NCBI GenBank assembly: GCA_029975765.1
Contig: JARKOK010000153.1
Span: 1 to 44,956, forward strand
DNA length: 44,956 nt
Source of the DNA: Aggregatilineales bacterium
GTDB taxonomy: Bacteria > Chloroflexota > Anaerolineae > Aggregatilineales > Phototrophicaceae
Direction: 5' to 3'
Shown here: one piece after another, positions 4,252-29,262 of the stretch
How the letters are laid out: each line of letters starts with the position of its first letter
Position numbering within the stretch: the first letter of the stretch is position 1
Program-made: the position numbers and the translations under genes
Notes under the pieces: model-generated
What the model saw: the letters and a program-made list of their open reading frames with translations, nothing else
Database searches by the model: none
Told to the model about the DNA's origin: nothing

Positions 4252-4259
4252 ACTGAAGT

Positions 4260-5585: not shown

Positions 5586-5627
5586 CTTCATCCCTCAAAC
5601 GCTAAAGTTTATCACCGCGAAACAAGG

Positions 5628-6281: not shown

Positions 6282-6366
6282 AAGTCCTCCTGCAATTCTT
6301 ATTATTGCCAAAAAACCCATCCCCAGTCCTTCCCCGGGCATCGGGGCGAAAAGGTCGTGTTCAAGT

Positions 6367-10923: not shown

Positions 10924-11961
10924 CTACGCCTGCTGTTTCAGATCAAAATCCTGCAAGTGCCGTTTGACTTTATCGCTGGTTTCGTCCTTTGCGCCCAGTA
11001 CCGGATGCAGCGACAAATCGGGCGAGTAGACGCTGGCGGGAACAGTGCGCCCCAACGCTTCAGCCATCGCCCGGACGTGATGCGGCGCGCCGCCGCAGCA
11101 GATGCCGATGTAATTCACGCCGCTGTCTTTCGCTCGCCGCGCGAAATCCGCCATCTCAAAGCGCGTATGCAGGAACGGGTCGAGGCCAACCGGAAACGCG
11201 CGGTTGCCGTGTGGGTCGGTCAGCACCTGAAAATACGGCTGTTCGTGGGTGGTATGGTACGGCACGGGCTGTGCCGCCACATAACAGGAAACTTTCGGAC
11301 GGATGCGCTCGATCAGTTCCAGCATCATATCCGGCCCCCGGCTGCAATTCAGGCCAACCACGTCCGCGCCGTGATCTTCCAGTGTCTTACAGGCATCCTC
11401 CCAGGGCAGGTCATCATAACTGGTTTCGTTCTTGGCGGCGAAGGTGACCATCGCGGGCAGGCCGGTTTGTTTAATCACATCCAGCGCGATCAACGCCTCT
11501 CCCAGATGGTTGAAGGTCTCCGCGATGAAAAAGTCCACCCCTTCTTCAACGGCCCAGCGCACCTGTTCCTCGAACATCGGGCGTACCGTCTTCTCGGATT
11601 CGTGGGGCTTCTGGGGGTCAAACTCCCAGGTGTTGCACACATTTCCGGCCACCAGCGCGCCCCCTTCCGCCGCGACCGATTTTGCCAGCCGCACAGCATC
11701 CCGGTTCAGCCGTTCCAGATCGCCCTCGCGCCCGACAGCCCGCATCTTCGCCCGGTGTGCGTAATAGGTGAAGGCAACCATGACTTCCGCGCCCGCGCGC
11801 AGAAACTCACGATGCAGTTCAGCAACGGCGTTGGGATATTCGATCACGACTTCCGGCACATACGCCCCGGCTTTCAGATAACCGCGCCGTTCCAGTTCAA
11901 ACAGATACCCTTCTGCCCCTAATACCACATCTTTTTGCAGCCGCTCCAGCAAACCAGCCAT
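10924..11961 (-). CDS. Homocysteine S-methyltransferase, betaine-homocysteine type
   Basis: 345 residues. The three zinc-binding cysteines of the family are present at C206 (GLNCSRGP), C288 and C289 (ICCGGAPHH). The N-terminus is VVLGAEGYLFELERRGYLK, where family members usually read DGA(M)GT(E)LE. The enzyme would move a methyl group from a donor such as glycine betaine, dimethylsulfonioacetate or S-methylmethionine onto homocysteine, giving methionine. A betaine-type donor fits the sox genes downstream, since dimethylglycine and then sarcosine would follow, but the exact donor is not shown by sequence. The ATG start has AGGAG eight bases upstream. Confidence 0.88.
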   Translation of the reverse strand: MAGLLERLQKDVVLGAEGYLFELERRGYLKAGAYVPEVVIEYPNAVAELHREFLRAGAEVMVAFTYYAHRAKMRAVGREGDLERLNRDAVRLAKSVAAEGGALVAGNVCNTWEFDPQKPHESEKTVRPMFEEQVRWAVEEGVDFFIAETFNHLGEALIALDVIKQTGLPAMVTFAAKNETSYDDLPWEDACKTLEDHGADVVGLNCSRGPDMMLELIERIRPKVSCYVAAQPVPYHTTHEQPYFQVLTDPHGNRAFPVGLDPFLHTRFEMADFARRAKDSGVNYIGICCGGAPHHVRAMAEALGRTVPASVYSPDLSLHPVLGAKDETSDKVKRHLQDFDLKQQA

Positions 11962-12044: not shown

Positions 12045-12926
12045 TTATTCGTGCTCCTCCGCCCGCGCGCGGCTGAGGCCGGTCATTTCAATCACCGGCG
12101 CGCCGTCGCGCTCCACCCATACACCGCATGAACCGCCGCCTTCGCTCACGTCCAGTTCCACCGGGCTGCCGTCCATCCGCAGCGCCGGATGGTAAAACTC
12201 GGCTACTTTCTGCGCGTCACCCACGATGTAATGGCCGATCAGCGAGCGGCGAAACCGGTTCGCCGTCGTATTCGGAAAGCTGCCATGTACCATCTGGCCG
12301 TTGAAGAACAGCACATCGCCCGCTTTCATCACCTGCGGCACCGGGGTCGTGCCATCCGGGAGCGGCACAGTCACATCGGTGAAACTCTGCGTCGTATCCG
12401 CCTTCACCGTACACAGAATATCCCACGTATGGCTGCCCGGCACCATCTGCATACAGCCGTTGGCCTCGTCGCAGTCATCCAGCGCCAGCCACGCGCCCAT
12501 ACACGTTCCCGGCTGCACTTTCAGATAATACTGATCCTGATGCAGCGCCTGCCCGCGCGCGCCCGGTGGTTTGAAGTACAGCATCGTCTGCACCGCAAAT
12601 GGTTCAACCCCCAGCAGCGCCGTAAGTGTCTCGCGCAGGCGGGCATCCAGCAGCCAGCGACGGCTGACATCATCCCAGCGATGCATGTGAATCATGCGGG
12701 GATACTCTTTCAGCGGATCGGGTGCGTCATCTTTCAGCAGATCGCCTGTCCGGGCCGAGTTACCCAGAATACGCGGCACACCGGCAAAATCTCCCTCATA
12801 AGCCCCGCCTTCGCGCAGCGCCATATAATGAGTACGGTAAAAAGCGACTTCTTCCGGCGTAAATAAACCCCGCACAATCAGATAACCATCGCGCTGATAC
12901 TGTTCAAGCTGGGCCGTCGTCAGCAT
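12045..12926 (-). CDS. Phytanoyl-CoA dioxygenase (PhyH) family Fe(II)/2-oxoglutarate oxygenase
   Basis: 293 residues from the ATG at 12926, chosen because GGAGGTG lies six bases before it; an ATG at 12941 overlaps that ribosome-binding site. The iron ligands are visible as H129-x-D131 (HQDQYYLK) and H214 (NGQMVHGSFPNTT), and R226/R227 would hold 2-oxoglutarate. Family members hydroxylate small molecules, lipids or osmolytes (ectoine hydroxylase is one). It is the first gene of the minus-strand operon, directly behind the predicted operator, so it probably performs the opening hydroxylation or dealkylation of the imported compound. The substrate is unknown. Confidence 0.88.
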   Translation of the reverse strand: MLTTAQLEQYQRDGYLIVRGLFTPEEVAFYRTHYMALREGGAYEGDFAGVPRILGNSARTGDLLKDDAPDPLKEYPRMIHMHRWDDVSRRWLLDARLRETLTALLGVEPFAVQTMLYFKPPGARGQALHQDQYYLKVQPGTCMGAWLALDDCDEANGCMQMVPGSHTWDILCTVKADTTQSFTDVTVPLPDGTTPVPQVMKAGDVLFFNGQMVHGSFPNTTANRFRRSLIGHYIVGDAQKVAEFYHPALRMDGSPVELDVSEGGGSCGVWVERDGAPVIEMTGLSRARAEEHE

Positions 12927-12941: not shown

Positions 12942-12963
12942 CCTGTCACCTGTCCTACAGGTG
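12942..12963 (-). promoter_or_regulatory. Predicted GntR/FCD operator, site A (sox operon)
   Basis: On the minus strand the site fits the pattern TGTAGGAYANNNNACAGG found also at 13031 and 24629. Its first 13 bases (CACCTGTAGGACA) equal those of the site in front of the GntR gene. The inner CACCTGT-AGG-ACAGGTG is a perfect palindrome. It directly follows the -10 box of the minus-strand promoter and ends just before the ribosome-binding site of the PhyH gene, so a bound repressor would block transcription start. Confidence 0.75.
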
Positions 12964-12993
12964 ATTGTAATTCGCGTTATCCAGGGGTGTCAA
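12964..12993 (-). promoter_or_regulatory. Promoter of the minus-strand PhyH-sox operon
   Basis: Consensus -35 TTGACA (12993-12988), 18-base spacer, -10 TACAAT (12969-12964; 5 of 6 matches). The predicted start of transcription falls inside operator site A. Confidence 0.72.
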
Positions 12994-12997
12994 GTTC

Positions 12998-13027
12998 TTG
13001 ACAGGCAGTGAGTTTTAGCGTTATGCT
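12998..13027 (+). promoter_or_regulatory. Promoter of the plus-strand importer operon
   Basis: Consensus -35 TTGACA (12998-13003), 18-base spacer, -10 TATGCT (13022-13027; 4 of 6). Its -35 box and that of the divergent promoter are the two arms of the palindrome TGTCAAGTTCTTGACA at 12988-13003. Only one polymerase could sit there at a time. Confidence 0.7.
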
Positions 13028-13030
13028 TCC

Positions 13031-13052
13031 AGGTTGTAGGATAGGTTACAGG
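13031..13052 (+). promoter_or_regulatory. Predicted GntR/FCD operator, site B (importer operon)
   Basis: TGTAGGATA with ACAGG at the same distance as in sites A and C; within the 18-base core it agrees with site A at 16 and with site C at 14 positions. It lies a few bases downstream of the plus-strand -10 box, mirroring site A on the other side. Confidence 0.68.
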
Positions 13053-13129
13053 CTTACATCGGGCTGTGTGTTTGTCCAGCATCCAGCGCCAAATATGAGA
13101 AATTAGGTTTATTTATCAGGAGACAGATC

Positions 13130-14791
13130 ATGAAACTGTTTAGCCCTAAAACGTTAAAGACCAACCAGGATCGGGTACGGGAAGCACATTTCCAGTACAC
13201 TCAGAACCGAATTTCACGGCGGGAGTTCCTGCGCTTTGCCTCGACGATGGGCGCCGGCGCCCTGGCGCTCAACCTGCTGCCCCCTCAGGAACGGCTGATG
13301 CTGCACACGGCACGGCTGGCGCAGGATGCGCCGGTGCGCGGCGGCACAATTTACAGTTCACTCGGCATTGACACACGGCGCTTTGACGATCCGGCACGGC
13401 TGGACTCGGTGTTTGTCTCCAACTACGTGCGCCAGGTCTGCGATTATCTGGTCGTGCTTGACTCAGACCTGAATCTGCAACCCTCCCTGGCGACAGGCTG
13501 GACGCCCTCGGACGATGGTAAGACCTGGACGGTTACGCTGCGCGAAGGCGTAAAATTCAATCATGGCAAGGATTTTAATGCTGACGATGTGGTATTCACC
13601 TTCGAGCGACTGCTGAACCCGGACAACAGCTCCGGCTGGGCGGGCGCGGCTAACTATGTGACCGGCGTGGAAAAAGTGAACGATTTCACCGTGAATTTTT
13701 ACACCAATCGTGTCGTCGGTGATTTTATCTACACGCTGTTCCTGTATCATGCCGCCGTGCTGCCGGCGGATTGGCCGGGCGATTTCTTCGCTAACCCCTG
13801 GGGCACCGGCCCGTTCACGATTGATGCCCATGTGCCGGACGAGTACATCCGCTTCAAACGCCGTGAGAATTACTGGCAGATGGGCGCGGACGGCCAGAGT
13901 CTCCCCTACCTGGACACGGTGGAATTCGTCAGTTATCCCGACGAAGCGGCGCGTTTCAGCGCCATGCAGGAGGGTTCACTGCACATGGGGCCGGCTTCGA
14001 TCACCCTGCGCGACCAGTACCTTGCCCTGCCAGACTACGAGTTCCGCACCGTACAGACCGGCAACCTGCACATCGGTATCATGAAATTCAACGAAGAACC
14101 CTGGACGAACCCCAATGTCGTGGAAGCGATGAAACTGGCGGTTAACCGTAAAGCCTACGCCGACACCCTGTACCTGGGTTTCGCCATTGAAGGCGACGAC
14201 CACCCCATTGCCCCCGGCATGTACCCGCTGGCGCCCGCCAACCAGACACCGCGCCAGCAGGATTATGAAAAAGCGAAGTCCCTGCTGGCCGAAGCCGGCT
14301 ACCCCAATGGGCTTGATCTGACCGTTGATTACATTGACCCCGGTTCGGACGGCGGCTTTGCCGAAGGTTTCGCGCAGTTCCTCGTCGGCCAGTGCGAACC
14401 GGCAGGCATCCGCCTGACGTTAGCGCCGAACCCGGACTTCTGGACGACGTGGCTGGACGACTGGGGAGCCAACCACTTCGGTGTATCCAACTGGGCGCAG
14501 AAGAATACCGCCAGCGAAATGCTCAATCTGGCATATTATTCCAAAGGTGTGTGGAACGAGTCTCACTGGAACAACCCGGAATTTGACGCGCTGCTGGAGG
14601 CGTTCGACAGCGAACTCGACCAGGAAGTTCGACGCGGCCAGTTGGAACAGCTTACCAACCTGATCTCCGATCAGGCGTCGGTGCTGATTCCGGGCTTCCG
14701 CCAGGACGCGGCGGCGGTTGCCAAGAACGTCCATTACCGGCTGCACCCGCAGGCTTACGTCTGGCTGGCTGACGCCTGGCTGACGCCGTAA
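13130..14791 (+). CDS. ABC importer substrate-binding protein, family 5, Tat-exported
   Basis: 553 residues. The N-terminus has a twin-arginine signal (SRREFLRF, R30-R31) followed by a hydrophobic stretch, so the protein is exported folded. The rest is a full family 5 binding protein: PSLATGWTPSDDGKTWTVTLREGVKFNHG, a GTGPF motif, then NPNVVEAMKLAVNRKAY and the closing helices. AGGAG lies before the ATG. It is the first gene of the operon controlled by the divergent promoter at 13 kb. Context suggests that it captures the compound degraded by the sox operon on the other strand. A peptide, betaine or other polar solute is possible. Confidence 0.93.
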   Translation: MKLFSPKTLKTNQDRVREAHFQYTQNRISRREFLRFASTMGAGALALNLLPPQERLMLHTARLAQDAPVRGGTIYSSLGIDTRRFDDPARLDSVFVSNYVRQVCDYLVVLDSDLNLQPSLATGWTPSDDGKTWTVTLREGVKFNHGKDFNADDVVFTFERLLNPDNSSGWAGAANYVTGVEKVNDFTVNFYTNRVVGDFIYTLFLYHAAVLPADWPGDFFANPWGTGPFTIDAHVPDEYIRFKRRENYWQMGADGQSLPYLDTVEFVSYPDEAARFSAMQEGSLHMGPASITLRDQYLALPDYEFRTVQTGNLHIGIMKFNEEPWTNPNVVEAMKLAVNRKAYADTLYLGFAIEGDDHPIAPGMYPLAPANQTPRQQDYEKAKSLLAEAGYPNGLDLTVDYIDPGSDGGFAEGFAQFLVGQCEPAGIRLTLAPNPDFWTTWLDDWGANHFGVSNWAQKNTASEMLNLAYYSKGVWNESHWNNPEFDALLEAFDSELDQEVRRGQLEQLTNLISDQASVLIPGFRQDAAAVAKNVHYRLHPQAYVWLADAWLTP

Positions 14792-14811
14792 ACCGCAACT
14801 GGTACTGCACC

Positions 14812-14841
14812 GTAGTGGGCGCGCAGCCGCGTGCCCACTAC
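14812..14841. repeat. Intergenic hairpin repeat, GTAG family, AGCC loop
   Basis: Inverted repeat with 13-base arms (GTAGTGGGCGCGC and GCGTGCCCACTAC), one G-T type mismatch, and the same AGCC loop as the copy at 1278. As in that case it stands between a binding-protein gene and its first permease gene. Confidence 0.8.
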
Positions 14842-14843
14842 CC

Positions 14844-14876
14844 GGCAGGGGACCTAGCGTGTCCCGACGGCCTGCC
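14844..14876. repeat. Second hairpin after the binding-protein gene
   Basis: GGCAGG (14844-14849) pairs with CCTGCC (14871-14876), with an inner GGGAC/GTCCC stem. No U-tract follows. Together with the preceding repeat it could protect the binding-protein mRNA and reduce read-through to the permeases. Confidence 0.55.
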
Positions 14877-14907
14877 AGTTTTGCCATCAGCCTGGAGAAC
14901 GAAAGCG

Positions 14908-15855
14908 ATGCTGCGTTTTATTCTGCGCCGCCTCGGCACAATGTTCATCACCATGTTTGTGCTGTCCATCCTGATTTTTATCATGTCGGAGGCGGTGCCA
15001 ACCGACCCGGCGCTTAAAATCCTTGGCCGCGAGTCAACTCCGGCAGCGCGAGCCGCTTTGTCCGAGAAAATGGGTTTCAACCGCCCTCTGCCCGAACGAT
15101 ACATCAACTGGATTACCCGTTTTGTTCAGGGAGACTTTGGCGAGTCCTACCGTCTCGGCGCGCCAATTCAACCACTGGTCGCCCGCCGCCTGACCAATTC
15201 ACTGTTCCTGGCGGCCTCCGCCCTGCTCATTATCATCCCTGTTCCGCTCATTCTGGGTGTCATCGCCGGCCTCAATGAAGGCCGCTGGCCGGATCGCGCC
15301 ATTTCCATTGGCAGCCTGCTGTCCATTTCCCTGCCGGATTTTGTGATGGGCGTGCTGCTCATCGTCATCTTTTCCTGGTGGCTCAAAATCCTGCCGGCAG
15401 ACAGCAGCCTGCGCGGCGACAATATTGATCTGGTGCAGCACGGGCGCAAACTGGTTCTGCCCGCGATGACGGCGGCGCTGGTGCTGGTGGGGTACATCAC
15501 GCGGGTGACGCGGGTGAGCATGGTCGAGGTGATGTCCTCGCCTTATATCCGCACCGCCGTGTTGAAGGGTCTGCCCTATCGTACTGTCATTGTGCGCCAC
15601 GCGCTGCGTAACGCCCTCATCGCCCCCATCGCCATTATCACTACGCAAATGAACTGGCTGATCGGCGGGTTGATCGTGATCGAGCAGTTGTTCAATTTTC
15701 CGGGTCTCGGCAGCCTGTTCGCCCGCGCCGCGCTGGAGAACGACCTGCCCATGATCGAAGCCTCGGCGATGACGGCCATTGTTCTGATCGTGCTGTCACA
15801 GCTGATCGCCGATTTGCTGTACAGCGCATTAAACCCGCGCGTGCGGTTTAGCTGA
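14908..15855 (+). CDS. Dipeptide-type ABC transporter permease, DppB family
   Basis: 315 residues starting MLRFILRRLGTMFITMFVLS, the typical anchor of this family; GGAGA lies ten bases upstream. About six membrane helices are visible, and the coupling loop is YIRTAVLKGLPYRTVIVRHA followed by LRNALIAPIA. The C-terminus ends LNPRVRFS, as in other DppB proteins. It is the first permease of the operon that starts with the Tat-exported binding protein and is followed after 12 bp by its partner. Confidence 0.93.
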   Translation: MLRFILRRLGTMFITMFVLSILIFIMSEAVPTDPALKILGRESTPAARAALSEKMGFNRPLPERYINWITRFVQGDFGESYRLGAPIQPLVARRLTNSLFLAASALLIIIPVPLILGVIAGLNEGRWPDRAISIGSLLSISLPDFVMGVLLIVIFSWWLKILPADSSLRGDNIDLVQHGRKLVLPAMTAALVLVGYITRVTRVSMVEVMSSPYIRTAVLKGLPYRTVIVRHALRNALIAPIAIITTQMNWLIGGLIVIEQLFNFPGLGSLFARAALENDLPMIEASAMTAIVLIVLSQLIADLLYSALNPRVRFS

Positions 15856-15867
15856 AGGAGGCCGGGC

Positions 15868-16755
15868 ATGGAAAAACCCCTGGAGCGTTCCGCTCCGCTT
15901 CCGGCATCACCGGTCGCTGCGCCCCACCGGCTGCGGTTGGGCTGGCGGCGCGTGCGGCGGCATCCTCCCATTCTGATCGGCGCGGCTATTCTGCTGTTCT
16001 GGGTAATCATGGCGATCATCGGCCCCTCGATTGTGCCCTACGGCATGAATGACAGCGAAGCCGGCGCGGTCTGGAAACCGCCGTCGGAGAACCATCTGTT
16101 AGGCACGGATGGCCTGGGACGTGACATCTTTTCGCGTCTGATCATCGGCGCGCGCCAGATGGTCACGCTGCCACCGCTGGCCGTCGGGCTGGCTGTCCTG
16201 TTTGGTACGTCGGTCGGCCTGCTGACCGGTTACCGGGGCGGCTGGTTTGATGAAATCGTGATGCGCCTTATGGACGTGCTGATGGCCTTTCCGGTCGTTA
16301 TGCTCTACCTGATCATCATCGTGGCCGTTGGCGCGTCCGCGGGAAACGTGGTATTCGCGGTCGCGGTGGCGACCGCCCCGGCGGTATCCCGGCTGGCGCG
16401 CGGTCTGGTGCTGGATTTACGCAGTCGTGAGTTCGTCGCGGCGGCACGAATGCGAGGCGAAAGCACCGCTTATATTCTGTTTCAGGAAATCCTGCCCAAT
16501 GCTGCCGGGCCGATTCTGGTAGACGGGCTGGTGCGTATCGGCTATGCCACCTTCTCGATTGCCGCGCTCGGCTTCCTGGGACTGGGTGTGCCGCCGCCGA
16601 ATCCCGACTGGGGGCGTATGGCAAGCGAAGCGCGGCAGGCAATCATCCTCACGCCGACGGCGGCCCTGTTCCCCTCACTGGCGATTGCGTCCATCGTCAT
16701 CGGCTGCAATCTGCTGGCGGACGGCCTGCGTGAACTGGCCCGGTCGGAGGATTAA
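15868..16755 (+). CDS. Dipeptide-type ABC transporter permease, DppC family
   Basis: 295 residues with GAAGGAGG before the ATG. A proline-rich cytoplasmic N-terminus precedes the first helix (LIGAAILLFWVIMAIIGPS). The DppC signature HLLGTDGLGRDIFSRLI and the coupling loop EFVAAARMRGESTAYILFQ are present, and FSIAALGFLGLGVPPPNPDW is close to the C-terminus. It pairs with the upstream permease to form the channel. The ATPase gene begins three bases after its stop codon. Confidence 0.93.
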   Translation: MEKPLERSAPLPASPVAAPHRLRLGWRRVRRHPPILIGAAILLFWVIMAIIGPSIVPYGMNDSEAGAVWKPPSENHLLGTDGLGRDIFSRLIIGARQMVTLPPLAVGLAVLFGTSVGLLTGYRGGWFDEIVMRLMDVLMAFPVVMLYLIIIVAVGASAGNVVFAVAVATAPAVSRLARGLVLDLRSREFVAAARMRGESTAYILFQEILPNAAGPILVDGLVRIGYATFSIAALGFLGLGVPPPNPDWGRMASEARQAIILTPTAALFPSLAIASIVIGCNLLADGLRELARSED

Positions 16756-16758
16756 ACG

Positions 16759-18858
16759 ATGCCTGTCCTGGACGTGCAGCATCTCAACGTCAGCTACCGG
16801 GGGCGGCAGGGTGTCGCCCGCGCGGTGCGCGATCTGTCGTTCACCATTCATGAGGGTGAAACCTTTGGACTGGTGGGTGAATCCGGCTGTGGCAAGTCAA
16901 CCGTCGCGCTGTCGGTTATGCGTTATCTCCCCAAACAGGCTGAAGTGACCGGCGCAGTCCTGTTCCAGGGCCGCGATCTGATGGAGGTACCCCCGGCGGA
17001 ACTGCGCCACCTGCGCGGCAACCGCATAGCGATGGTCTATCAGGACCCGCAGGCATCCCTCAATCCGGTGCTGACCATCGAAAAGCAGTTGGTCGAAGTG
17101 CTGATGACCCATGAGGAGTGCAGCCAGGCTGAGGCGCGCCGCCGCGCAGCAGCGATGCTGGAACGGGTGCGAATGCCGGACCCGGACTACATCCTCCACC
17201 GTTACCCGCACCAGCTCAGCGGCGGGATGCAGCAGCGTGTGGTGATTGCGATGGCGCTGCTGCTCAATCCTGATCTGGTCATCATGGATGAACCCACCAC
17301 CGGCCTCGATGCGACGGTCGAGGCCAGCGTGCTCGACCTGCTGGAAGTGCTGCGCCAGGAATTTAAGATGGCGATCCTCTACATCAGCCATAACCTCGGC
17401 GTGGTCGCCCGTATCTGCGACCGTGTGGGCGTGATGTATGCCGGCGAACTGGTGGAACAGGCGCGCAACCAGGAGTTATTCGCGCAGCCGCACCATCCAT
17501 ACACCATCAGCCTGCTGCGCTGCCTGCCGCAGCGTGGCACGCGGCATACCGACGAACTGCTGTACTCAATTCCGGGGCGCGTGCCGCCGCTGACCGACCT
17601 GCCATCCGGCTGTGTGTTCGCCGCGCGCTGCGTGCTGGCCGAACCCGGCTGCACCGTCCGTCCGCCCGTGCTGGAAGCGGTGAACAGCCAGCACATCGTG
17701 CGCTGTTATCGCTGGCAGGCCGTGCACCAGCAGCCCGCGCTGGTCGCTGCTGCCCCTGCGCCGCTGGTAAAACCGCCTGCCGCCGACCATAACTACCTGC
17801 TCTCGGTCAAGAACCTGAAGGTGTATTTTAAGCAGGCTGCCGGCTGGCTCGGTCTGGGGCGGCGCACTGACGTAAAATCGGTGGACGACGTGAGTTTCAG
17901 CCTGTCGCCACAGCATACACTGGGCATCGTCGGTGAAAGTGGCTGTGGCAAAAGCACGATTGCGCGCGGCCTCGCCGGACTGACACCCATCACCGGCGGC
18001 ACGGTGCTGTTCGCCGGCAGCGATTTTTCTCAGCCGCTCGAACAGCGCGGCCAGAGCGCCCTGCGCCAGATGCAGATGGTCTTCCAGAACCCGGACTCTA
18101 CGCTCAACCCGCGCCACACCATTCGTAAAACCCTGTCGCGCCCGCTGCGCCGGTTTAAAGTCGTGCCACCCGCCCAGGAAAGGGAACACATCATCGGCCT
18201 GCTGCGGGCGGTCAATCTGGATGAAAGTTACCTGGATCGCCTGCCGCGCCAGTTAAGCGGCGGCGAAAAACAGCGCGTGGCAATCGCGCGGGCGATTGCC
18301 GGCGGGCCGCAGTTGGTGCTGTGCGACGAACCCATTTCGGCGCTGGATGTATCGGTACAGGCGGCTGTCATCAACCTGCTGCGCGAATTGCAGCAGGAGC
18401 GTCAGGTCGCGCTGCTGTTCATCTCGCACGATCTGAACGTCGTGCGGTATCTGGCCGATCAGGTGATGGTGATTTACCTGGGGCGCGTATGTGAATCCGG
18501 TCCAACAGAAGCCATCTTCAATTTACCATCCCATCCCTACACCGAGGCGTTAGTGTCGGCGGTGCCGGAAGTGAACCCAACCACCACCGCGCAGGCTGTC
18601 CGGCTGGAAGGCACCGTACCCAGCCCGGCCAACCCGCCGGGCGGCTGCCGCTTCCACACCCGCTGCCCGCGCAAGCTTGGCGCCATCTGTGAAACCCATG
18701 AACCACCCGCGCAGGAGGCGGGCAGCGGCCATCACATTTTCTGCCACATCCCGCTGGATGAACTGGCAGCGATGCAAACATCGAAGCACCCTGTTTCGGC
18801 ACTCACCCCCCACCCCTCTCATGGCGCGGGGGAACAGGCCGGCAGCCCTTCTGCCTGA
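16759..18858 (+). CDS. Fused double ATPase of a dipeptide-type ABC transporter (DppD-DppF fusion)
   Basis: 699 residues holding two complete ABC domains. Domain 1 has Walker [10 protein letters not shown] (40-48), signature LSGGMQQR (153-160) and Walker B LVIMDEP. Domain 2 has Walker [10 protein letters not shown] (392-400), signature LSGGEKQR (from 499) and Walker B LVLCDEP. Each is followed by an oligopeptide-transporter C-terminal region with cysteines ([31 protein letters not shown]), which in this family can bind an iron-sulphur cluster. The last 20 or so residues ([18 protein letters not shown]) derive from an inserted intergenic repeat. It powers the importer and could also serve the ATPase-less importer at the start of the window. 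Confidence 0.94.
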
Positions 18859-18890
18859 GGGAGAAAGGTAGCGCGCAGCGCCGGGATGAG
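18801..18890. repeat. Intergenic repeat that has entered the 3' end of the ATPase gene
   Basis: ACTCACCCCCCACCCCTCTC and CTGAGGGAGAAAGG resemble the two ends of the CTCTCCCT-type elements at 9636 and 6367. The first 58 bases lie inside the ATPase reading frame and encode its unusual tail; the rest is downstream. A GCGCGCAGCGC stretch follows. Confidence 0.6.
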
Positions 18891-18934
18891 ATCACGTACC
18901 AGCTTGTAAGTATTGATCCTGAGGAGTAACGTCC

Positions 18935-19627
18935 ATGCTCGCCTTCGTAGACATTCAGGGCCGCTGGCTGGTCGAAGACCCGCAGGTTGGCCCGCCGCAT
19001 AACCGGGAAGCCGCCGAACGCGCCGGGAACATCGCTGCCGCCGCCGGCGTCCCCTGCCAGTTGGTCAACTACTGGAATTTCAGTCTGGACTGGATGCGTG
19101 CCAACCACATCCAGGGTTTCTGCATCAGCGGCAACACCCCGGACTGGGCAGAGTATGACTGGGATACCTTCAAGCCGCTGCAAGAGGCTATTTGTTCCGG
19201 CGACTTTCCTGTGTTGGGCTTCTGCGGCGGGCATCAGTTAATCGGCCTCACCTTTGGCGCGCCCTGTGACGCGCTGGGGCCGCTCCAGCCAGGTGAGGTT
19301 GATCTGATGCCGGATTACCATCCGGGGATGCGGAAGGAAAAAGGTTATCTGCCGCTGAGACCGCAGAACCCGCAGCATCCCCTGTTTGATGGTTTTCCAC
19401 CTTCCGGCCCGGTTATCATGGAAAGCCATTACTGGGAGATCAAGGAACTGCCGCCCGGTTTTAAGCTGCTGGCTTCCACCGACTGGTGCCGCATCCAGGT
19501 GATGCAGCATCAGGAACTGCCGGTGTTTGGCATTCAGGGACACCCGGAGGCTTACACCCCGGAGTACCCGGATGGCAAACGATTTATTCGCAATTTTGCG
19601 GTTATGACCGGACTGATTAAGCCCTGA
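18935..19627 (+). CDS. Class I glutamine amidotransferase-like hydrolase
   Basis: 230 residues of the GATase1 fold with a complete catalytic triad: C97 in the nucleophile elbow GFCGGHQLIG, and H203 and E205 in GIQGHPEAYTPEY. No synthetase domain is attached and none lies nearby, so it may be a stand-alone hydrolase of a gamma-glutamyl or similar amide bond rather than an ammonia donor. GAGGAG precedes the ATG. It is the first enzyme gene after the transporter and is followed after 7 bp by MmgE/PrpD, so it probably acts early on the imported compound. The substrate is unknown. Confidence 0.85.
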   Translation: MLAFVDIQGRWLVEDPQVGPPHNREAAERAGNIAAAAGVPCQLVNYWNFSLDWMRANHIQGFCISGNTPDWAEYDWDTFKPLQEAICSGDFPVLGFCGGHQLIGLTFGAPCDALGPLQPGEVDLMPDYHPGMRKEKGYLPLRPQNPQHPLFDGFPPSGPVIMESHYWEIKELPPGFKLLASTDWCRIQVMQHQELPVFGIQGHPEAYTPEYPDGKRFIRNFAVMTGLIKP

Positions 19628-19634
19628 GCAGCAT

Positions 19635-20978
19635 ATGGCCGCCAACCCGGTTGTTACCTTCATCCATGACCTGCGCTTTACCGACCTGCCCGCCGATGTG
19701 GTGCAGCAGGCGCGGCGCTGCCTGCTCGATCTGATCGGTACGGCGGCGGGCGGGCATACCACCGATGTCACCCACATCATCCGCTGCCATGCCGTGCGGC
19801 ACTTCGGCGCGGGGGCGGATGGCGGCGCACGGCTGCTGCTGGACGGTCGGCGTGCCAGTCCGGTGGGCGCGGCGCTGGCCGGGGGCATGATGATTGACAG
19901 CATGGACTGTCACGACGGCCACGTGCTGACCAAAGGCCACGCCGGAGTCGCCCTCCTGCCGGCGCTGCTGGCACTGGTGGACAGCGGCAGCGCGATAGAT
20001 GGGCATGAATTCCTGACCGCGCTGGTGCTGGGTTATGAAATCGCCACCCGCGCCGGTATCGCCCTTCATACTGCCGCCTGCGATTACCACACGTCCGGCG
20101 CGTGGAACGCGCTGGCCTGTGCCGCCTTGGGCGCGCGCCTGCTGCATCTCTCCGCCGCGCAGACCCGTCACGCGCTGGGTACGGCGGAGTATCACGGCCC
20201 GCGCAGCCCGATGATGCGCTGCATTGATTACCCCACGATGGTTAAGGACGGCTCCGGCTGGGGCGCGATGGTCGGCCTCAGCGCGGCCTATCTGGCGGCA
20301 GACGGCTTCACCGGCGCGCCGGCCTTAACCCTGGAAGGCGAGGATGTCTCCCATTTCTGGAATGATGTGGGCGACCGCTGGCGCATCCGGGAGCAGTACT
20401 TCAAAGCGTACCCGGTCTGCCGCTGGGCGCAGCCCGCCGTCGAAGCGGCGCTCGCCTTGCAGCGCATCCACCAGCTCGATGCCGGTAACATCGAGCACAT
20501 CGAAGTTCACACCTTTCACGAAGGTACGCGGCTGGCAGCCCGCTTCCCGGCCACTACCGAAGAAGCGCAGTACAGCCTGCCGTTCCCGGTCGCGGCGGCG
20601 CTGGTGCGGGGTCATCTGGGCGCGGCGGAAGTAACCGGCGCGGCGCTGTCTGACCCGGCCATCCTCCGCCTGACGGGCAGTATGATGCTGGTGGATGATG
20701 CCTATTACAGCGCGCGTTTTCCGGCGGAACGCTGGGCGCACGTCACCTTTGTGCTGAAGGATGGCACGCAGCGCACATCCACCCCGGCCATCGCACGCGG
20801 CGGCTCGGAAAATCCGCTGTCGGATGACGAGCTGCGCGCGAAATACTGCGCGCTGGCCGAGCCGGTGCTGGGCACAGACCGTACCGCGCGGATTGAATCG
20901 CTCGTTCACGCGCTGGCCGACGAATCGCACACGCTGCCGGAATTATTAAATATGATTCTCGAAAAGCCGCAGTTGTAG
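19635..20978 (+). CDS. MmgE/PrpD family protein
   Basis: 447 residues, the usual length of the family. The N-terminal helical part (FIHDLRFTDLPADVVQQARRCLLDLIGTAAGG) and the conserved MIDSMDCHDGHVLTKGHAG segment, comparable with the family's D-x-D-D motif region, are clear. So are the substrate-cavity part AAVLPA/AGVALLPALLAL and the C-terminal FPAERWAHVTFVLKDG. The family includes 2-methylcitrate dehydratase and several dehydratases or isomerases of unknown substrate. There are no methylcitrate-cycle genes nearby, so a propionate role is unlikely. The stop codon TAG lies inside a GTAGGGGC repeat half. Confidence 0.88.
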   Translation: MAANPVVTFIHDLRFTDLPADVVQQARRCLLDLIGTAAGGHTTDVTHIIRCHAVRHFGAGADGGARLLLDGRRASPVGAALAGGMMIDSMDCHDGHVLTKGHAGVALLPALLALVDSGSAIDGHEFLTALVLGYEIATRAGIALHTAACDYHTSGAWNALACAALGARLLHLSAAQTRHALGTAEYHGPRSPMMRCIDYPTMVKDGSGWGAMVGLSAAYLAADGFTGAPALTLEGEDVSHFWNDVGDRWRIREQYFKAYPVCRWAQPAVEAALALQRIHQLDAGNIEHIEVHTFHEGTRLAARFPATTEEAQYSLPFPVAAALVRGHLGAAEVTGAALSDPAILRLTGSMMLVDDAYYSARFPAERWAHVTFVLKDGTQRTSTPAIARGGSENPLSDDELRAKYCALAEPVLGTDRTARIESLVHALADESHTLPELLNMILEKPQL

Positions 20979-21031
20979 GGGCTGCCCGTGTGGCCGCACT
21001 GATGAAATCATAACGCTTTTGGCGCGATACC

Positions 21032-21060
21032 GTAGGGGCGAACCGGCGGTTCGCCCTTAC
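21032..21060. repeat. Intergenic hairpin repeat, GTAGGGGCG family
   Basis: Inverted repeat with arms GTAGGGGCGAACC and GGTTCGCCCTTAC (one wobble-type mismatch) around GGC. A decayed half copy starting GTAGGGGCTGCCC lies at about 20975, where it contains the stop codon of the MmgE/PrpD gene. The pair fills the 111-bp gap before the GH4 gene. Confidence 0.8.
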
Positions 21061-21089
21061 CGGAAATATTTGGTTCATGGAGAGTCATC

Positions 21090-22436
21090 ATGCCACCTAA
21101 AATCAGCATCATCGGAGCCGGCAGCGCGGTTTTTTCGCTGCGGCTGCTGATTGATCTGTGTGTCACGCCCAATCTCGCGGGCAGCACCATCAGCTTTATG
21201 GATATTGATGAGACGCGGCTGGACGCGATTCACCGCCTCTGCCAGCGATACGCCGACGAGATGGGGCAGCACTTTGTTCTGGAGAAAACGACCGACCGCC
21301 GTGAATCCCTGCGCGGTGCGGATTTTGTCATCAACACCGCGCTGGCCGCCGGCCACGACTGGCTGCGCGCCGGGTGGGAAGTGGGTCGCAGGCTGGGCTA
21401 CCGTATGGGCGGCAGCCTGCACGTTATGCACGACGAAGGCTTCTGGATCAACTTCTACCAGCTTCAACTGATGGAGGCCGTCATTCAGGACGTGCTGGAG
21501 GAGTGCCCGCAGGCGTGGTATCTCCAGGTCGGCAATCCCGTCCTGGCCGGAATCACCTATCTGGGGCGGAAGTATCCGCAGGCCAGAATCGTCGGGTTAT
21601 GTCATGGCTTCAGCGGCGTGTACCGGATTGCCGAGGTGTTAGGTTTAGATCGTGAAGGGCTGACCTTCCAGATTCCCGGCGTGAATCATTTTGTATGGCT
21701 GACGCATCTTTACCATCGCGGTCAGGACGTGATGCCGCTGTTCGACCGCTGGCTTGAAACCGACGCGGCGCGTTACTGGGAAACCTGCAAACCGAGCGAC
21801 TTCCTGGGGCCGGTGGCGGTTGACCTGTATAAAAAGTTTGGTGTGTTCCCGATTGGTGACACCTGCAACCCCGGCGGCGGCTCGTGGCCGTACTGGTATC
21901 ACGTGGACGACGAAACCGAAAAACGCTGGCACGAAAGCCCGACGCAGTGGTACGAGGATTATTTTGGCTGGCTGGCGCGCACTGTTGCCGAGATTCGCCG
22001 CGCGGGTGAGGATACCGCTGTCCCGGTCACACAGGTGTTTCCGCCCAAAGCCTCCGGCGAGGTGATGGTGCCGATTATCGAAGCGATTGCCTGCGACATC
22101 CCGCGTATAATTATCGGCAACATCCCAAATTCCGGCGATTTTGTACCCGGCGTTCCGCGTGATTTTGCCGTCGAAATCCCGCTGCTCGTCAGCAAACGCG
22201 GTATCCAGGGTGTCAAGACCGGCGGCCTGCCTGTGCCGCTGACGGCCTACATTTTGCGTGACCGCGTCGCCCCTGTTGAAGTTGAACTTGAAGCCTACGA
22301 AACCGGTCGTAAAGACCGCCTGCTGCAGCTCATTCTGATGGATCCGTATACACAATCCATGCCGCAGGCGTGCCAGTTGCTCGACGATATTCTGGCGCTG
22401 CCGTTTAATGAGGCCATGCGCCAGCATTACCGATAA
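21090..22436 (+). CDS. Glycoside hydrolase family 4 enzyme (NAD- and metal-dependent)
   Basis: 448 residues. The N-terminal Rossmann fold (KISIIGAGSAVFSLRLLIDL) binds NAD. FVINTALAAGHDW and QVGNP (N149) are family landmarks, and C171 (GLCHGF) and H200 (GVNHFVWL) match the two metal ligands of GH4. These enzymes split glycosidic bonds by redox-assisted elimination; known members use alpha-galactosides, alpha-galacturonides or 6-phospho-glycosides. No phosphotransferase system is present, so a non-phosphorylated substrate is more likely. GGAGA precedes the ATG. Its presence in an operon with amine-catabolic genes hints that the imported compound may carry a sugar or uronic acid. Confidence 0.87.
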   Translation: MPPKISIIGAGSAVFSLRLLIDLCVTPNLAGSTISFMDIDETRLDAIHRLCQRYADEMGQHFVLEKTTDRRESLRGADFVINTALAAGHDWLRAGWEVGRRLGYRMGGSLHVMHDEGFWINFYQLQLMEAVIQDVLEECPQAWYLQVGNPVLAGITYLGRKYPQARIVGLCHGFSGVYRIAEVLGLDREGLTFQIPGVNHFVWLTHLYHRGQDVMPLFDRWLETDAARYWETCKPSDFLGPVAVDLYKKFGVFPIGDTCNPGGGSWPYWYHVDDETEKRWHESPTQWYEDYFGWLARTVAEIRRAGEDTAVPVTQVFPPKASGEVMVPIIEAIACDIPRIIIGNIPNSGDFVPGVPRDFAVEIPLLVSKRGIQGVKTGGLPVPLTAYILRDRVAPVEVELEAYETGRKDRLLQLILMDPYTQSMPQACQLLDDILALPFNEAMRQHYR

Positions 22437-22493
22437 ATGTAAGCCGTTTATCACGTTTTTGTACGGAAACCTGCAACGAGAAGGGAACTGCCG

Positions 22494-23816
22494 ATGATAG
22501 ACCCGGTTGCCCGCATCATGGTGGACTTCGTGCAGATGAAGGAGTTCGTCAGCGCGCCGTTCATCATTGACCATGCCGAAGGTATTTACCTGTACGACAC
22601 CGCTGGCAAACAGTACATTGACGGCCTCGCGGGAGTCTTCGTCGTCAGTGTCGGCCACCGCAATACCGCTGTGCTGGAAAGCATTATGGATCAGATGCAG
22701 CGTCTGACGTTCGCACCGCCGCTCGCCAGCGCCAACCTGCCCGCCATCAAACTGGCGGAACGCATCTGCCAGCTTACACCGCCGCAGTTTAATCGGGTGA
22801 AGTTCGCCAGCGGCGGTTCGGAAGCGGTTGAAACGGCGATCAAGATGGCGCTTCAGTACCACAAACAGCACGGCCAGCCAGAACGGTACAAAATCATCGG
22901 GGCATATGGCGCGTATCATGGCGGCACGTTGGGCGCGTTGAGCGCCTCCGGCGTAAGCAGCCGCCGCACCAGTTTTGAACCCCTGATCGGCAGCATGATT
23001 CACGTTCACCCGCCAAACTTTAGACACTGCCCGCTCCGGCTGGACGCGAAACAGTGTGAAACATCGTGTGTACTGCAATTTGAAGAGACGATCCGGCGGG
23101 AAGGACCGGATACGGTGGCGGCGGTCATCGTTGAACCGGTCATGAATGTTGAAGGTCTGGTGTTCCCGCCGCCCGGCTACTTCGAGACTCTACGCCAGAT
23201 TTGCGACCGCTACGGCGTGCTGCTGATTTACGACGAGATTATCACTGGTTTCGGGCGTACCGGCACGCTGTTTTTTGCCGAACAGTCCGGCGCGTGGCCA
23301 GATATGATCTGCACCGGTAAAGGCATGAGCGGCGGCTACGCGCCGCTGGCGGCCACCATCGTGGCGGATAAAGTCGCTCAGACCTTCTGGGGCGAACCGG
23401 AAGATCAGGTACAGTATAATGGCGGCCACACCTTCGCCGGGAATCCGCTGGCCTGCGCCGCCGGGCTGGCCGTGCTGGATTACATCGAGCAGCGCGATGT
23501 GCTGGCGCATGTGCAGCAGGTCGGCCCGTATCTGGGACACAGGCTGCGGGCACTCCAACACACCTGCGCGCAGATTGTAGATGTACGCGGCCTCGGTCTG
23601 TGGTGGGGCGTGGAATTCCAGCCGGACAATCCAACCGGCAGACCCGGCGACGACATCGGCAAACGGCTGGAACGCGCGGCGCGAGCGCGCGGGCTGGTGC
23701 TGCGCGGCGCGCCCACGATGGTCTCGTTTGGCCCACCGCTGACCATCACCCGTGACGAAATTGATGACATGGTCAACCGGCTGGCGCTGGCAATCCATGA
23801 CGTATACGGGGTGTAA
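22494..23816 (+). CDS. Class III pyridoxal-phosphate aminotransferase
   Basis: 440 residues. Landmarks: ASGGSEAVETAIKMAL (phosphate-binding), GAYGAYHGGTLGALSASG, the cofactor aspartate in LLIYDEIITGFGRTG, and the lysine of the internal aldimine in ICTGKGMSGGYAPLAA. THTFAG-like GGHTFAGNPLACAAGLAVL is also present. Members transfer the amino group of omega-amino acids, beta-amino acids or glutamate semialdehyde-type compounds to pyruvate or 2-oxoglutarate. It is the last gene of the operon and ends 18 bp from the convergent GntR gene. The substrate cannot be told from sequence. Confidence 0.92.
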   Translation: MIDPVARIMVDFVQMKEFVSAPFIIDHAEGIYLYDTAGKQYIDGLAGVFVVSVGHRNTAVLESIMDQMQRLTFAPPLASANLPAIKLAERICQLTPPQFNRVKFASGGSEAVETAIKMALQYHKQHGQPERYKIIGAYGAYHGGTLGALSASGVSSRRTSFEPLIGSMIHVHPPNFRHCPLRLDAKQCETSCVLQFEETIRREGPDTVAAVIVEPVMNVEGLVFPPPGYFETLRQICDRYGVLLIYDEIITGFGRTGTLFFAEQSGAWPDMICTGKGMSGGYAPLAATIVADKVAQTFWGEPEDQVQYNGGHTFAGNPLACAAGLAVLDYIEQRDVLAHVQQVGPYLGHRLRALQHTCAQIVDVRGLGLWWGVEFQPDNPTGRPGDDIGKRLERAARARGLVLRGAPTMVSFGPPLTITRDEIDDMVNRLALAIHDVYGV

Positions 23817-23834
23817 ATGCGCGGCAGCCTCGTG

Positions 23835-24578
23835 CTACGGCAGAGTCGAACGGTTCATTTCCGGCGCTTCGCTGGTCTTCGGCGGCGTACCATCGGTCAG
23901 ATGGGCCAGCGGTGTATACGTGCGTTTAAGCCGTTCGACCACCAGGTCAGGATCGCGCTGGCGCAGCGCCTCCAGCAGATCCCTGTGGTTTTGAATATCG
24001 TCCGCTTTGGCCGTCGGCGGTTCATCTTCGAACAGATGGCGCGTGCTGCTGTAGATACCGGCAAAAACATCAAACAGCTTCAGCAGCGTTGCGTTGCCTA
24101 CCTGCTGGAACAACAGCCGGTGCAGCGCCAGATCAGGTTCATGGTAATCCTGTCCGGCATGGTGCAGGCGTTCCATTTCGGCTACCTGCTGCTCAATCTG
24201 CGCCAGCGTTTCATCTGTCAACTGCTTGACCGCCTCGCGCGCGTAGCTCAGTTCCAACCGCTGGCGGATCTCGTACAGTTCGGCCACGCTGCGGCCATCC
24301 ACTGCCAGGCTGTACGCCACATTGGTCAGGATGTCGTCAATCGAAGCCGCCCGCACGAACACACCCAGCCCTACGCGCACTTCGACCAGTCCCAGCGCCT
24401 CCAGCCCTTTGATCGCCTCGCGTATCGGATTGCGGCTGACGTTCAACTGTGCCGCCAGTTCCATTTCAGACGGCAGGCGGTCGCCGGGATGCAGGTGATT
24501 TTCCAGAATGTACTGCCGCAGTGCATCCTGCACCGCGCGATAGCGATAGGTTGTGTTGAGGGGTTTCAGCTTGTTCAT
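23835..24578 (-). CDS. GntR family transcriptional regulator, FadR/FCD subfamily
   Basis: 247 residues from the ATG at 24578. The frame stays open to 24677, but the longer form would include the operator and the -10 box in coding sequence, and residues before MNKLKP do not resemble the family. The winged helix is at about 12-75 (RLPSEMELAAQLNVSRNPIREAIKGLEALGLVEV). The C-terminal FCD domain has the metal-binding residues D149, H153 and H198. Such proteins usually repress catabolic operons and release DNA when a small carboxylate binds. Three copies of a shared operator (12942, 13031, 24629) suggest that it controls both flanking operons and itself. Confidence 0.92.
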   Translation of the reverse strand: MNKLKPLNTTYRYRAVQDALRQYILENHLHPGDRLPSEMELAAQLNVSRNPIREAIKGLEALGLVEVRVGLGVFVRAASIDDILTNVAYSLAVDGRSVAELYEIRQRLELSYAREAVKQLTDETLAQIEQQVAEMERLHHAGQDYHEPDLALHRLLFQQVGNATLLKLFDVFAGIYSSTRHLFEDEPPTAKADDIQNHRDLLEALRQRDPDLVVERLKRTYTPLAHLTDGTPPKTSEAPEMNRSTLP

Positions 24579-24628
24579 GCGTCTCGCCGGCTTTGATTTT
24601 GACAACGGTTTGGCTGGCAGGATAGACT

Positions 24629-24650
24629 CACCTGTAGGACATTCTACAGG
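24629..24650 (+). promoter_or_regulatory. Predicted GntR/FCD operator, site C (autoregulation)
   Basis: CCTGTAG-GACATT-CTACAGG (24631-24650) is a perfect inverted repeat with 7-base arms. It contains TGTAGGACA and the distal ACAGG of the common pattern. It lies between the divergent GntR and SDR genes, downstream of the GntR gene's -10 box and at the likely -35 region of the SDR operon, so it could repress both. Confidence 0.78.
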
Positions 24651-24708: not shown

Positions 24709-25491
24709 ATGCGGTTACAGGATCGGGTGGCGCTGGTCACCGGAGCAGGTTCAGGCATTGGTCGGGCGACGGCGCTGCGGCTGGCCCAGGAAGGCGCGCG
24801 CGTCGCTGTCGTGGATTGGAACGCGGCAACCGGCGCGGAAACCGTGCAGATGTTAAAGGATCAGGGCAGCGACAGCCTGTTCATCCATGCCGACATCTCG
24901 AAAGTAGCCGATACCGAACGTATCGTCCGGGAAGCTGTGGCGCGTTACGGGCAGTTGAATATCCTGGTGAACAACGCCGCCGTCATGCTGGAAAAAACCG
25001 TCGTGGACACCACCGAGGAAGATTGGGAGCGCATCGTCGGTGTGAACCTGCGCGGCACGTTCTTCTGCGCCAAACATGCCGTCATCCAGTTCCGCCGGCA
25101 GGGGCATGGCGGGAATATCGTCAATATGGCCTCGGTCAACAGTTTTTATGCTGAAGGCGGCATCGCGGCCTACTGCCTGACTAAAGGCGGCATCGCACAG
25201 TTCACCCGCGCGCTGGCGATGGATCACAGCGGCGAGGGCATCCGCGTCAATGCCATCTGCCCCGGTTGGATTGAAACCGCCATGAATGCCAATTTCTTTG
25301 CTCTCGGCCCGCACATCCGGGAACAGGCCGCCCGCCTGCACGCGATCCAGCACATCGGCCAGCCGGAGGATGTAGCCAATGCCGTTGTTTATCTGGTATC
25401 CGACGAAGCCTCCTTTGTCACCGGCAGTATGCTGACAGTGGACGGTGGGTTCTCGGCAGGTTTAGCCCCCGCGCTGGGAATTGTGGTCTAG
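24709..25491 (+). CDS. Short-chain dehydrogenase/reductase (classical SDR)
   Basis: 260 residues with the complete SDR pattern: TGAGSGIG (11-18) for the dinucleotide, D36 favouring NAD(H), NNAA near 88-91, S142, Y155 and K159 (YCLTK), and the ending LVSDEASFVTGSMLTVDGG. AAGGAG stands eight bases before the ATG. It would oxidise or reduce a hydroxyl/keto group of a sugar or of a hydroxy acid. It starts the operon divergent to the GntR regulator and is followed after 2 bp by the epimerase-like gene, which supports a sugar-related substrate. Confidence 0.92.
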   Translation: MRLQDRVALVTGAGSGIGRATALRLAQEGARVAVVDWNAATGAETVQMLKDQGSDSLFIHADISKVADTERIVREAVARYGQLNILVNNAAVMLEKTVVDTTEEDWERIVGVNLRGTFFCAKHAVIQFRRQGHGGNIVNMASVNSFYAEGGIAAYCLTKGGIAQFTRALAMDHSGEGIRVNAICPGWIETAMNANFFALGPHIREQAARLHAIQHIGQPEDVANAVVYLVSDEASFVTGSMLTVDGGFSAGLAPALGIVV

Positions 25492-25493: not shown

Positions 25494-26495
25494 ATGACCG
25501 CGCGGCTAGACCCACACTGGCAGTACAACGGCCTGCGCGCCATCGTACTCGATAATCCGGCGCTGCAAGTGACCGTGTTCCCGGAAGCCGGGGCGCGCGT
25601 CTACAACCTGATTCACAAACCGACCGATACTAACCTGCTCTGGCATCACCCCCGTACCCTGCCGCGCCACATCCCTTACGGCTCGATCTTTGATGATACG
25701 TGGCCGGGCGGCTGGGATGAGATACTGCCCTCGACCGAAGCCTGCCAGTATCGCGGTGAAACGCTGCCAAACATGGGTGAACTCTGGGCGCTGCCCTGGG
25801 ACTGGCAGGCGGTTGACACGGATGATGGTTCAGCTTGCCTGTACACCGGCGTTTCAGCGGCCATTCTGCCGCTGCGTTATGAACGCTGGTTGCGGCTGGA
25901 CGCGGCAGAGCCGGTCATCCGTCTCCGCTACCGCGTGACCAACCTCGGCCTGTCGCCGCTGGATCTGATCTGGGGAATTCATCCGGTCTTTGCCATCAGT
26001 CCACAGCATCGGATTGATCTGCCCCCCTGCACCGGTCTCGTCGGCCAATCGTCCGGCAGCCGCCTTGGCCAAACCGGACAGGCATACCAGTGGCCGCACC
26101 TGCCCACGCCAGAGGGCGCGGTGGACATGCGCCGCGTACCACCATATAAAACCAATGTCTTTGGTGGGCATTATGCCACCAACCTGCAAGGCAACTGGTT
26201 TGCCCTGACCGACACCGCGCGGCGCGTCGGCATTGGCATGGTCTTTCCAGCCGATATATTTAAAGCACTGTGGCTGTGGCAGGTTTACGGCGGCTGGCGC
26301 GGGCTGTATCAACTGGCGATTGAACCCTGGGTCGGTTATCCGGTGCGGCTGGACCAGGCGATTGAAGCCGGACGGCAGCGCATCCTCCCGCCGGGGCAGC
26401 CGGTCGAATACGAAGCCGCGCTGGTGGTATATACCGGACTGGAAGCCGTCAGCGGTATTCAGCGTACCGGCGACCGGTATACGGTGTCCGGTTAA
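25494..26495 (+). CDS. Aldose 1-epimerase-like protein (galactose mutarotase fold)
   Basis: 333 residues. The start of the fold, LDNPALQVTVFPEAGARVYNLIHKPTDTNLLW, resembles aldose epimerase-type proteins, followed by DDTWPGGWDEILPS and a long beta-sandwich pattern. A GIHPVFAIS segment carries a histidine in the place where mutarotases have a catalytic His, and ENEP-type acid residues appear later. Proteins of this group bind a hexose or larger glycan and may interconvert anomers. It follows the SDR gene almost without gap. I judge the fold likely, while true epimerase activity is uncertain. Confidence 0.78.
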   Translation: MTARLDPHWQYNGLRAIVLDNPALQVTVFPEAGARVYNLIHKPTDTNLLWHHPRTLPRHIPYGSIFDDTWPGGWDEILPSTEACQYRGETLPNMGELWALPWDWQAVDTDDGSACLYTGVSAAILPLRYERWLRLDAAEPVIRLRYRVTNLGLSPLDLIWGIHPVFAISPQHRIDLPPCTGLVGQSSGSRLGQTGQAYQWPHLPTPEGAVDMRRVPPYKTNVFGGHYATNLQGNWFALTDTARRVGIGMVFPADIFKALWLWQVYGGWRGLYQLAIEPWVGYPVRLDQAIEAGRQRILPPGQPVEYEAALVVYTGLEAVSGIQRTGDRYTVSG

Positions 26496-26525
26496 CCATT
26501 TTCAACGATGCCGCGTTATTCTTAT

Positions 26526-26550
26526 AGGGGCGGGTAACGAAACCTGCCCC
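26526..26550. repeat. Intergenic hairpin repeat, GGGGCGGGT arms
   Basis: GGGGCGGGT pairs with ACCTGCCCC across a short AACGAA loop (one mismatch). It is a shortened copy of the GTAGGGGCGGGTTTA-type element seen at 33630 and 5628. It stands in the 79-bp gap before the GH116 gene. Confidence 0.65.
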
Positions 26551-26574
26551 AGCCACACGTTACAGGGGGAAGTC

Positions 26575-29181: not shown

Positions 29182-29262
29182 AGACATGCACTACGTCCCG
29201 CTGCCGGAACGGAATCGGTGATAGCAGCAGCGTGACACAATGCTCACACCGGAGAACCATAC

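Follow-up and report, generated by a model that had tools for sequence, protein, structure and literature searches.

A predicted GntR/FCD regulon joining three catabolic operons in an Aggregatilineales bacterium, with an apparent exchange of regulator among relatives

In the window, by which we mean the whole 44,956-nucleotide stretch of DNA analysed here, three related 20-bp sites appear to be the operators of a local regulon governed by the GntR/FCD protein encoded beside one of them, a reading to which we assign a probability of about 0.86 on the strength of sequence comparison. Such a regulon had been proposed in a preliminary description of this DNA, and it is supported by the uniqueness of the sites in two genomes, by comparative footprinting, by the common register and orientation of the sites at three promoters and by the occurrence of the core upstream of 14 of 53 more distant GntR homologues. 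We regard it as a well-supported regulon of an ordinary FadR/FCD type, whose most interesting feature is the apparent swap of the regulator in relatives with the same importer genes.

Table 1 Features of the window, with positions counted from its first nucleotide
Feature	Position	Strand	Remarks
URO-D-like protein	3211..4263	-	weak: 19 bits, cut-off 23.9
DAO-family FAD oxidoreductase	4260..5591	-	profile match
SoxG-like gamma subunit	5640..6341	-	54 bits to TIGR01375, cut-off 144
SoxA-like alpha subunit	6416..9319	-	907 bits to TIGR01372, cut-off 1164
85-aa ORF between soxB- and soxA-like genes	9327..9584	-	unscanned
SoxB-like DAO subunit	9681..10916	-	507 bits to TIGR01373, cut-off 529
Homocysteine S-methyltransferase	10924..11961	-	best solved relatives betaine-homocysteine methyltransferases, E 1e-57 (PDB)
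phyH, PhyH-family dioxygenase	12045..12926	-	first gene of operon 1; start 12926 after GGAGGTG
Operator 1	12942..12961	-	CCTGTAGGACAGGTGACAGG; near predicted transcription start of phyH-sox operon
Promoter-like TTGACA-18-TACAAT, phyH-sox operon	12964..12993	-	11/12 positions
Promoter-like TTGACA-18-TATGCT, importer operon	12998..13027	+	10/12 positions
Operator 2	13033..13052	+	GTTGTAGGATAGGTTACAGG; near predicted start, importer operon
Family 5 solute-binding protein, importer	13130..14791	+	profile match
Two permeases and fused double ATPase	14815..18858	+	profile matches
Class-I glutamine amidotransferase-like protein	18935..19627	+	profile match
MmgE/PrpD family protein	19635..20978	+	profile match
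GH4 family glycosidase	21090..22436	+	profile match
Class III aminotransferase	22494..23816	+	profile match
gntR, GntR/FCD regulator, 247 aa	23835..24578	-	Pfam GntR and FCD; 87% in L001
Promoter-like TTGACA-18-TAGACT, SDR operon	24599..24628	+	10/12 positions
Operator 3	24631..24650	+	CCTGTAGGACATTCTACAGG; between gntR and SDR gene
SDR dehydrogenase	24709..25491	+	first gene of operon 3; profile match
DUF4432/aldose-epimerase-like protein	25494..26495	+	weak
GH116 family glycosidase	26233..29181	+	true start probably after 26495

Predicted operator sites and their promoters

The three shared sites of the preliminary description were all recovered, with slightly shifted ends and a length of 20 bp each, and the core TGTAGGAYANNNNACAGG matched them without mismatch at 12942-12959 (-), 13035-13052 (+) and 24633-24650 (+). 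The stated agreement of sites 1 and 2 (16 of 18 core positions) held, and the likeness of sites 1 and 3 also stood, as a run of 14 bases (TCACCTGTAGGACA) in place of the 13 shared bases claimed. Each site is built from a left box (CCTGT, GTTGT and CCTGT in sites 1, 2 and 3), the triplet AGG, a middle box (ACAGG, ATAGG and ACATT) and a right box, ACAGG, which is invariant in the three sites and begins 7 bp past the middle box. The symmetry is weak in sites 1 and 2; site 2 has no CC start and carries ATA for ACA, so that the TGTnnnACA-like centre attributed to all three holds for sites 1 and 3 only. Agreement among the three sites in 13 of 20 columns was equalled in 1 of 300 dinucleotide shuffles of the two intergenic regions, which makes their likeness by itself moderately strong.

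The genome scan that had been suggested as a check yielded no stray exact copies of the core: in the window's own genome (G000; 5.97 Mb, 594 contigs, 95.7% complete, 6.65% contamination) the only exact matches are the three sites, and in the sister genome described below they are the three corresponding places. The complete site is found in these two genomes only. Weak matches with up to three mismatches were not in excess in either of them, being rarer than those of the reversed control pattern (52+41 versus 65+85 in the window's genome; 45+59 versus 208+206 in the sister). Two-mismatch matches outside the cluster numbered 15 (7 in the window's genome and 8 in the sister), and 12 of these lie within ORFs of at least 100 aa; we do not claim a wider regulon beyond the cluster. 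The matches outside such ORFs are in L075, L079 and L080; that in L075 (801-820; G000:C249:1388-1407) is an operator-like CCTGAAGAATAACCAACAGG situated directly upstream of an ORF.

As the preliminary description had it, all sites lie at predicted promoters. A TTGACA-18-TANNNT hexamer pair precedes each, sites 1, 2 and 3 start 2, 5 and 2 bases past its -10 box, and all three are oriented along transcription near the predicted +1, a position downstream of the -10 box that suggests repression. Some FadR-type proteins activate, and the GntR protein might accordingly be an activator at the three promoters; we hold this to be very improbable, because each site follows a pair of hexamers close to the -35 and -10 consensus, a position that favours blocking over activation. 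Sites 1 and 2 are 91 bp apart in both the window and the sister, indels notwithstanding; DNA looping between them was considered and rejected, 91 bp not being a whole number of helical turns.

The closest relative of the window GntR in the named genome collection is encoded by the Chloroflexi MAG JACRPS010000010.1 (L001; 87% identity), which we call the sister (G298, about 6.0 Mb; G302, listed in the same genus, was taken as the same genome). A 58-kb stretch of the sister is collinear with the window from 3.2 to 29 kb at approximately 83% DNA identity. Between the two, all 60 site bases are identical, compared with 160 of 264 other intergenic columns, 32 of 36 promoter hexamer bases and 48-71% of four-fold sites in six neighbouring genes; similar hexamers were seen by eye at the corresponding sister positions.

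The sites, lying as they do at predicted transcript 5' ends, could also be RNA elements such as stabilising hairpins or leader switches instead of DNA operators, and site 3 can fold into an 8-pair hairpin (-9.9 kcal/mol). However, folding gave z-scores of 0.11, 0.34 and -1.32, hence no common strong fold; the conservation extends to all 20 bases of each site, loop bases included; and many homologue copies of the core (see below) precede a TATAAT-like box and so lie upstream of any transcript. This explanation was dropped after folding and appears to us barely credible.

The GntR protein and its predicted recognition core

The window GntR scored 83.6 bits against the GntR domain (cut-off 27) and 78.4 bits against FCD (cut-off 24.3) and thus has the FadR/FCD subfamily architecture. 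We chose the start at 24578 over the one given by the ORF, 24677, since it brings the HTH match to residue 13 and agrees with the sister, whose match begins at the equivalent Met; this start and that of phyH (12926) were picked by eye. A PADLOC match to Csa3 was weak (18 bits) and was taken as HTH likeness. A close GntR orthologue occurs in 2 of 98 family genomes, those of the window and the sister, and among the proteins scanned gntR is the sole regulator in the block syntenic with the sister (window 3.2-29 kb).

The published operator consensus of the FadR subfamily (PdhR, LldR, DgoR) is TKGT-N3-ACMA, according to the available part of PMC4494728. Each of the window cores (CTGT-AGG-ACAG, TTGT-AGG-ATAG and CTGT-AGG-ACAT) agrees with it at 6 of 8 box positions, with GT-N3-AC in sites 1 and 3 and GT-N3-AT in site 2. 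The left and middle boxes resemble the subfamily core, and with the right box ACAGG the window site reads as a putative three-box site. The same part of that source describes an additional half-site 7-12 nt from the centre in 13 groups, to which the right box ACAGG would correspond. Common to both are also the GntR HTH with FCD and the presence of the regulator among its own likely targets. The window differs in its core triplet AGG with AYA, in outer box positions that depart from the consensus and in the invariance of its ACAGG box, whereas the extra boxes are called weaker in that part of PMC4494728. The window pathway was not found in the papers retrieved.

NanR is a second point of comparison. 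The best NCBIfam profile for the window GntR is NanR NF003011, though at 97 bits it falls far under the cut-off of 260, and the NanR structure 6on4 is among its PDB matches. The two have in common the domain architecture and an operator of more than two boxes. NanR reads a (GGTATA)3 repeat, as given in the available part of PMC8012715, whereas the window has inverted boxes plus one more, and GGTATA does not occur in the three sites.

We counted TGTAGGAYA, or its complement, upstream of 53 GntR homologues with 30-43% identity (33 loci, the window's and the sister's excluded, and 20 more taken in list order, the G340 homologue being left out because of a contig end). It was present upstream of 14 of them (6/33 and 8/20), against at most 2 of 53 in 200 shuffles, bearing in mind that the word had been derived from the window sites and seen upstream of a few homologues before counting, and that the homologues are not all independent (G319 and G322 are closely related, and G348 contributes two regions). 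Of all 9-mers upstream of the 53 homologues, TATCCTACA is the most frequent; it is complementary to the core of site 2. A TTGNNN lies at most 16 bases upstream of the core in 14 of 16 homologue occurrences and a TATAAT-like box follows in several, which places these sites in the promoter spacer, mostly upstream of the -10 box and unlike the window sites near +1. The outer box of the window sites (ACAGG, or CCTGT-N4 on the other strand) was absent at the window spacing from all 16 occurrences upstream of the homologues. Since 39 of 53 homologues do not have the core upstream, TGTAGGAYA can at best be the mark of a subgroup, and at 30-43% identity a protein may differ from the window GntR in specificity.

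Among 33 full homologue proteins and the window's own, Asn50 of the recognition helix was present in 6 of 7 with the core (the window's included) and in 2 of 27 without it. From FadR numbering, we take Asn50 to be equivalent to a residue treated in the published subfamily comparison. An Asn at that position prefers A/T beside the operator centre (PMC4494728, available part), which agrees with the A on one side of the core but not with the G on its other side. Another word, TGTCAGACA, is repeated upstream of 10 of the 53 homologues (for example L008 and L009), with Ala or Gly at residue 50 in five scored proteins of this group; there may therefore be a sister subgroup of GntR proteins with a different core triplet. 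Within the library searched, no literature joined TGTAGGATA to GntR or Chloroflexi to sarcosine oxidase and GntR, and a search for TATCCTACA with regulon returned only papers unrelated by title.

The conserved sites might nevertheless be bound by another regulator, with gntR their neighbour by chance. An AraC gene lies nearby at 30656-31513, and G000 contains 9 scored matches to the window GntR, itself included. The AraC gene, however, is outside the block matching the sister contig, TATCCTACA is, as described above, the most frequent 9-mer upstream of distant GntR homologues, and the close GntR orthologue and the exact core occur together in two genomes, while G341, G319 and G322 yielded neither. 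We consider this alternative improbable and retain the GntR protein as the predicted ligand of the sites. The region around the AraC gene (29200-37150) also encodes an ADP-ribosylglycohydrolase, a GH127 protein and a second sugar importer; because window 29.0-37.2 kb has no match in the 58-kb sister stretch compared, this region probably forms a sugar locus of its own, outside the regulon.

A probable single pathway with two candidate regulators among relatives

The SoxB-, SoxA- and SoxG-like genes stand in the order of the heterotetrameric sarcosine oxidase operon soxBDAG, with the 85-aa ORF presumably in the place of SoxD, the small delta subunit. Unlike that operon, the window set is joined to a BHMT-like methyltransferase, PhyH, glycosidases and a family 5 importer, and its Sox-like proteins all score below the NCBIfam subfamily cut-offs (Table 1), so that the oxidase may be sox-like and perhaps serve another substrate. 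The BHMT-like enzyme, the sox-like oxidase, the second DAO enzyme, the class III aminotransferase, GH4 and GH116 together suggest a betaine-like compound joined to a sugar and demethylated stepwise, a guess from protein families. PDB searches gave no match for the URO-D-like protein and one weak match for the DUF4432-like protein. PhyH was discarded as a lead to the substrate: 34 of 298 class genomes have homologues (E <= 1e-40), and ten of their contexts are almost devoid of other window genes, one with an SDR at 29% and one with sugar permeases at 24-27%.

Counting the window's own genome, importer orthologues, judged by the binding protein (E <= 1e-60), were found in 6 of 98 family genomes, and in a class sample (E <= 1e-120; three candidates scored per genome) in 1 of 396, the window's own. 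The full gene set recurs in the sister alone. In G322, phyH, GH116, AT3, two SDR genes, DUF4432 and uroD are consecutive and divergent from a run from SBP to GH4; no sox or BHMT-like gene turned up in the sequence retrieved. In G341, the importer genes diverge from the sox and BHMT-like genes, and SDR comes after AT3 as the last gene before the contig end; phyH and uroD were not found. These two arrangements indicate that genes from all three operons of the window keep together. G336 has importer genes on a contig that ends inside the binding-protein gene. Near the G322 importer operon (L102 255-6202), four URO-D-type methyltransferase-like ORFs, one corrinoid-protein-like and one mutarotase-like ORF were recognised by eye, a hint of corrinoid-linked demethylation in the G322 version of the pathway.

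The exact GntR core was absent from the four other importer-bearing genomes (G341, G319, G322 and G336), and no close GntR orthologue was found in G341, G319 or G322. In these three an IclR-family ORF adjoins the amidotransferase gene of the importer operon, at a position where the window has merely 7 bp before prpD. The G341 protein belongs to the IclR family (IclR_C 141 bits, HTH_IclR 51 bits); those of G319 and G322 are assigned by their 65% identity to it. Orthologues at 65% or more were confined to these three of 98 family genomes, the best matches in the window's genome and the sister reaching 34 and 36%. In all three, two copies of TTRTGCA-N7-TGCATAA stand in the importer promoter region at a distance of 86 or 109 bp, with no further exact copies in the three genomes. 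Conservation of the sites in relatives keeping the cluster, which had been named as a check on the proposed regulon, thus holds in the sister and fails in G341, G319 and G322, where an IclR gene and another palindrome stand instead. G319 and G322 have GntR homologues at 37% on other contigs with TATCCTACA upstream, which we read as paralogues kept there.

The co-occurrence of gene and palindrome leads us to infer that the IclR protein binds TTRTGCA-N7-TGCATAA. By eye, this palindrome fits neither of the two main published IclR operator types (GKTYCRYW3-4RYGRAMC and TGRAACAN1-2TGTTYCA), and A/T-rich palindromes are named as a further kind in the available part of PMC8222616, the source of both. 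Five importer-operon proteins show 97-100% identity between G319 and G322, and prpD shows 90%, so the pair counts as one case, giving two independent IclR cases rather than three. Six importer proteins of five genomes, placed in an unrooted tree, fall into three lineages that are about equally deep, which favours neither a GntR-first nor an IclR-first order. In the window, gntR and operator 3 are located between the aminotransferase and SDR genes, which adjoin in G341.

We consider it likely that the regulator of a single catabolic pathway has been swapped, with GntR and TGTAGGAYA in one genus and IclR and TTRTGCA-N7-TGCATAA in two others, each time with two operators at the importer promoter region. 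Non-orthologous regulator replacement is a known theme of comparative regulon studies, in which the same pathway likewise has different regulators in related genomes; here the two promoter palindromes differ along with the regulator.

Proposed mechanism and significance

In the proposed mechanism the GntR/FCD protein (23835-24578) would be a local repressor, a dimer of which would bind the predicted 20-bp sites near the three start points and so block the phyH-sox, ABC importer and SDR-GH116 operons. An effector, likely an acidic pathway intermediate, would release it. The recognised core would be TGT-AGG-AYA, near the GT-N3-AC of the FadR subfamily, with a third box, ACAGG, in the window lineage. 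The regulator had also been counted in its own regulon: site 3 points to the SDR operon, and control of gntR is plausible, probably again by repression. The three operons may serve a single pathway that imports and dismantles one compound, perhaps betaine-like and sugar-linked.

On this account some 20 poorly understood Chloroflexota genes would become one testable regulon, and a GntR subgroup found repeatedly in the class would gain a recognition core. With a GntR version and an IclR version, the pathway may be a natural setting in which to study the rebuilding of operators during a change of regulator.
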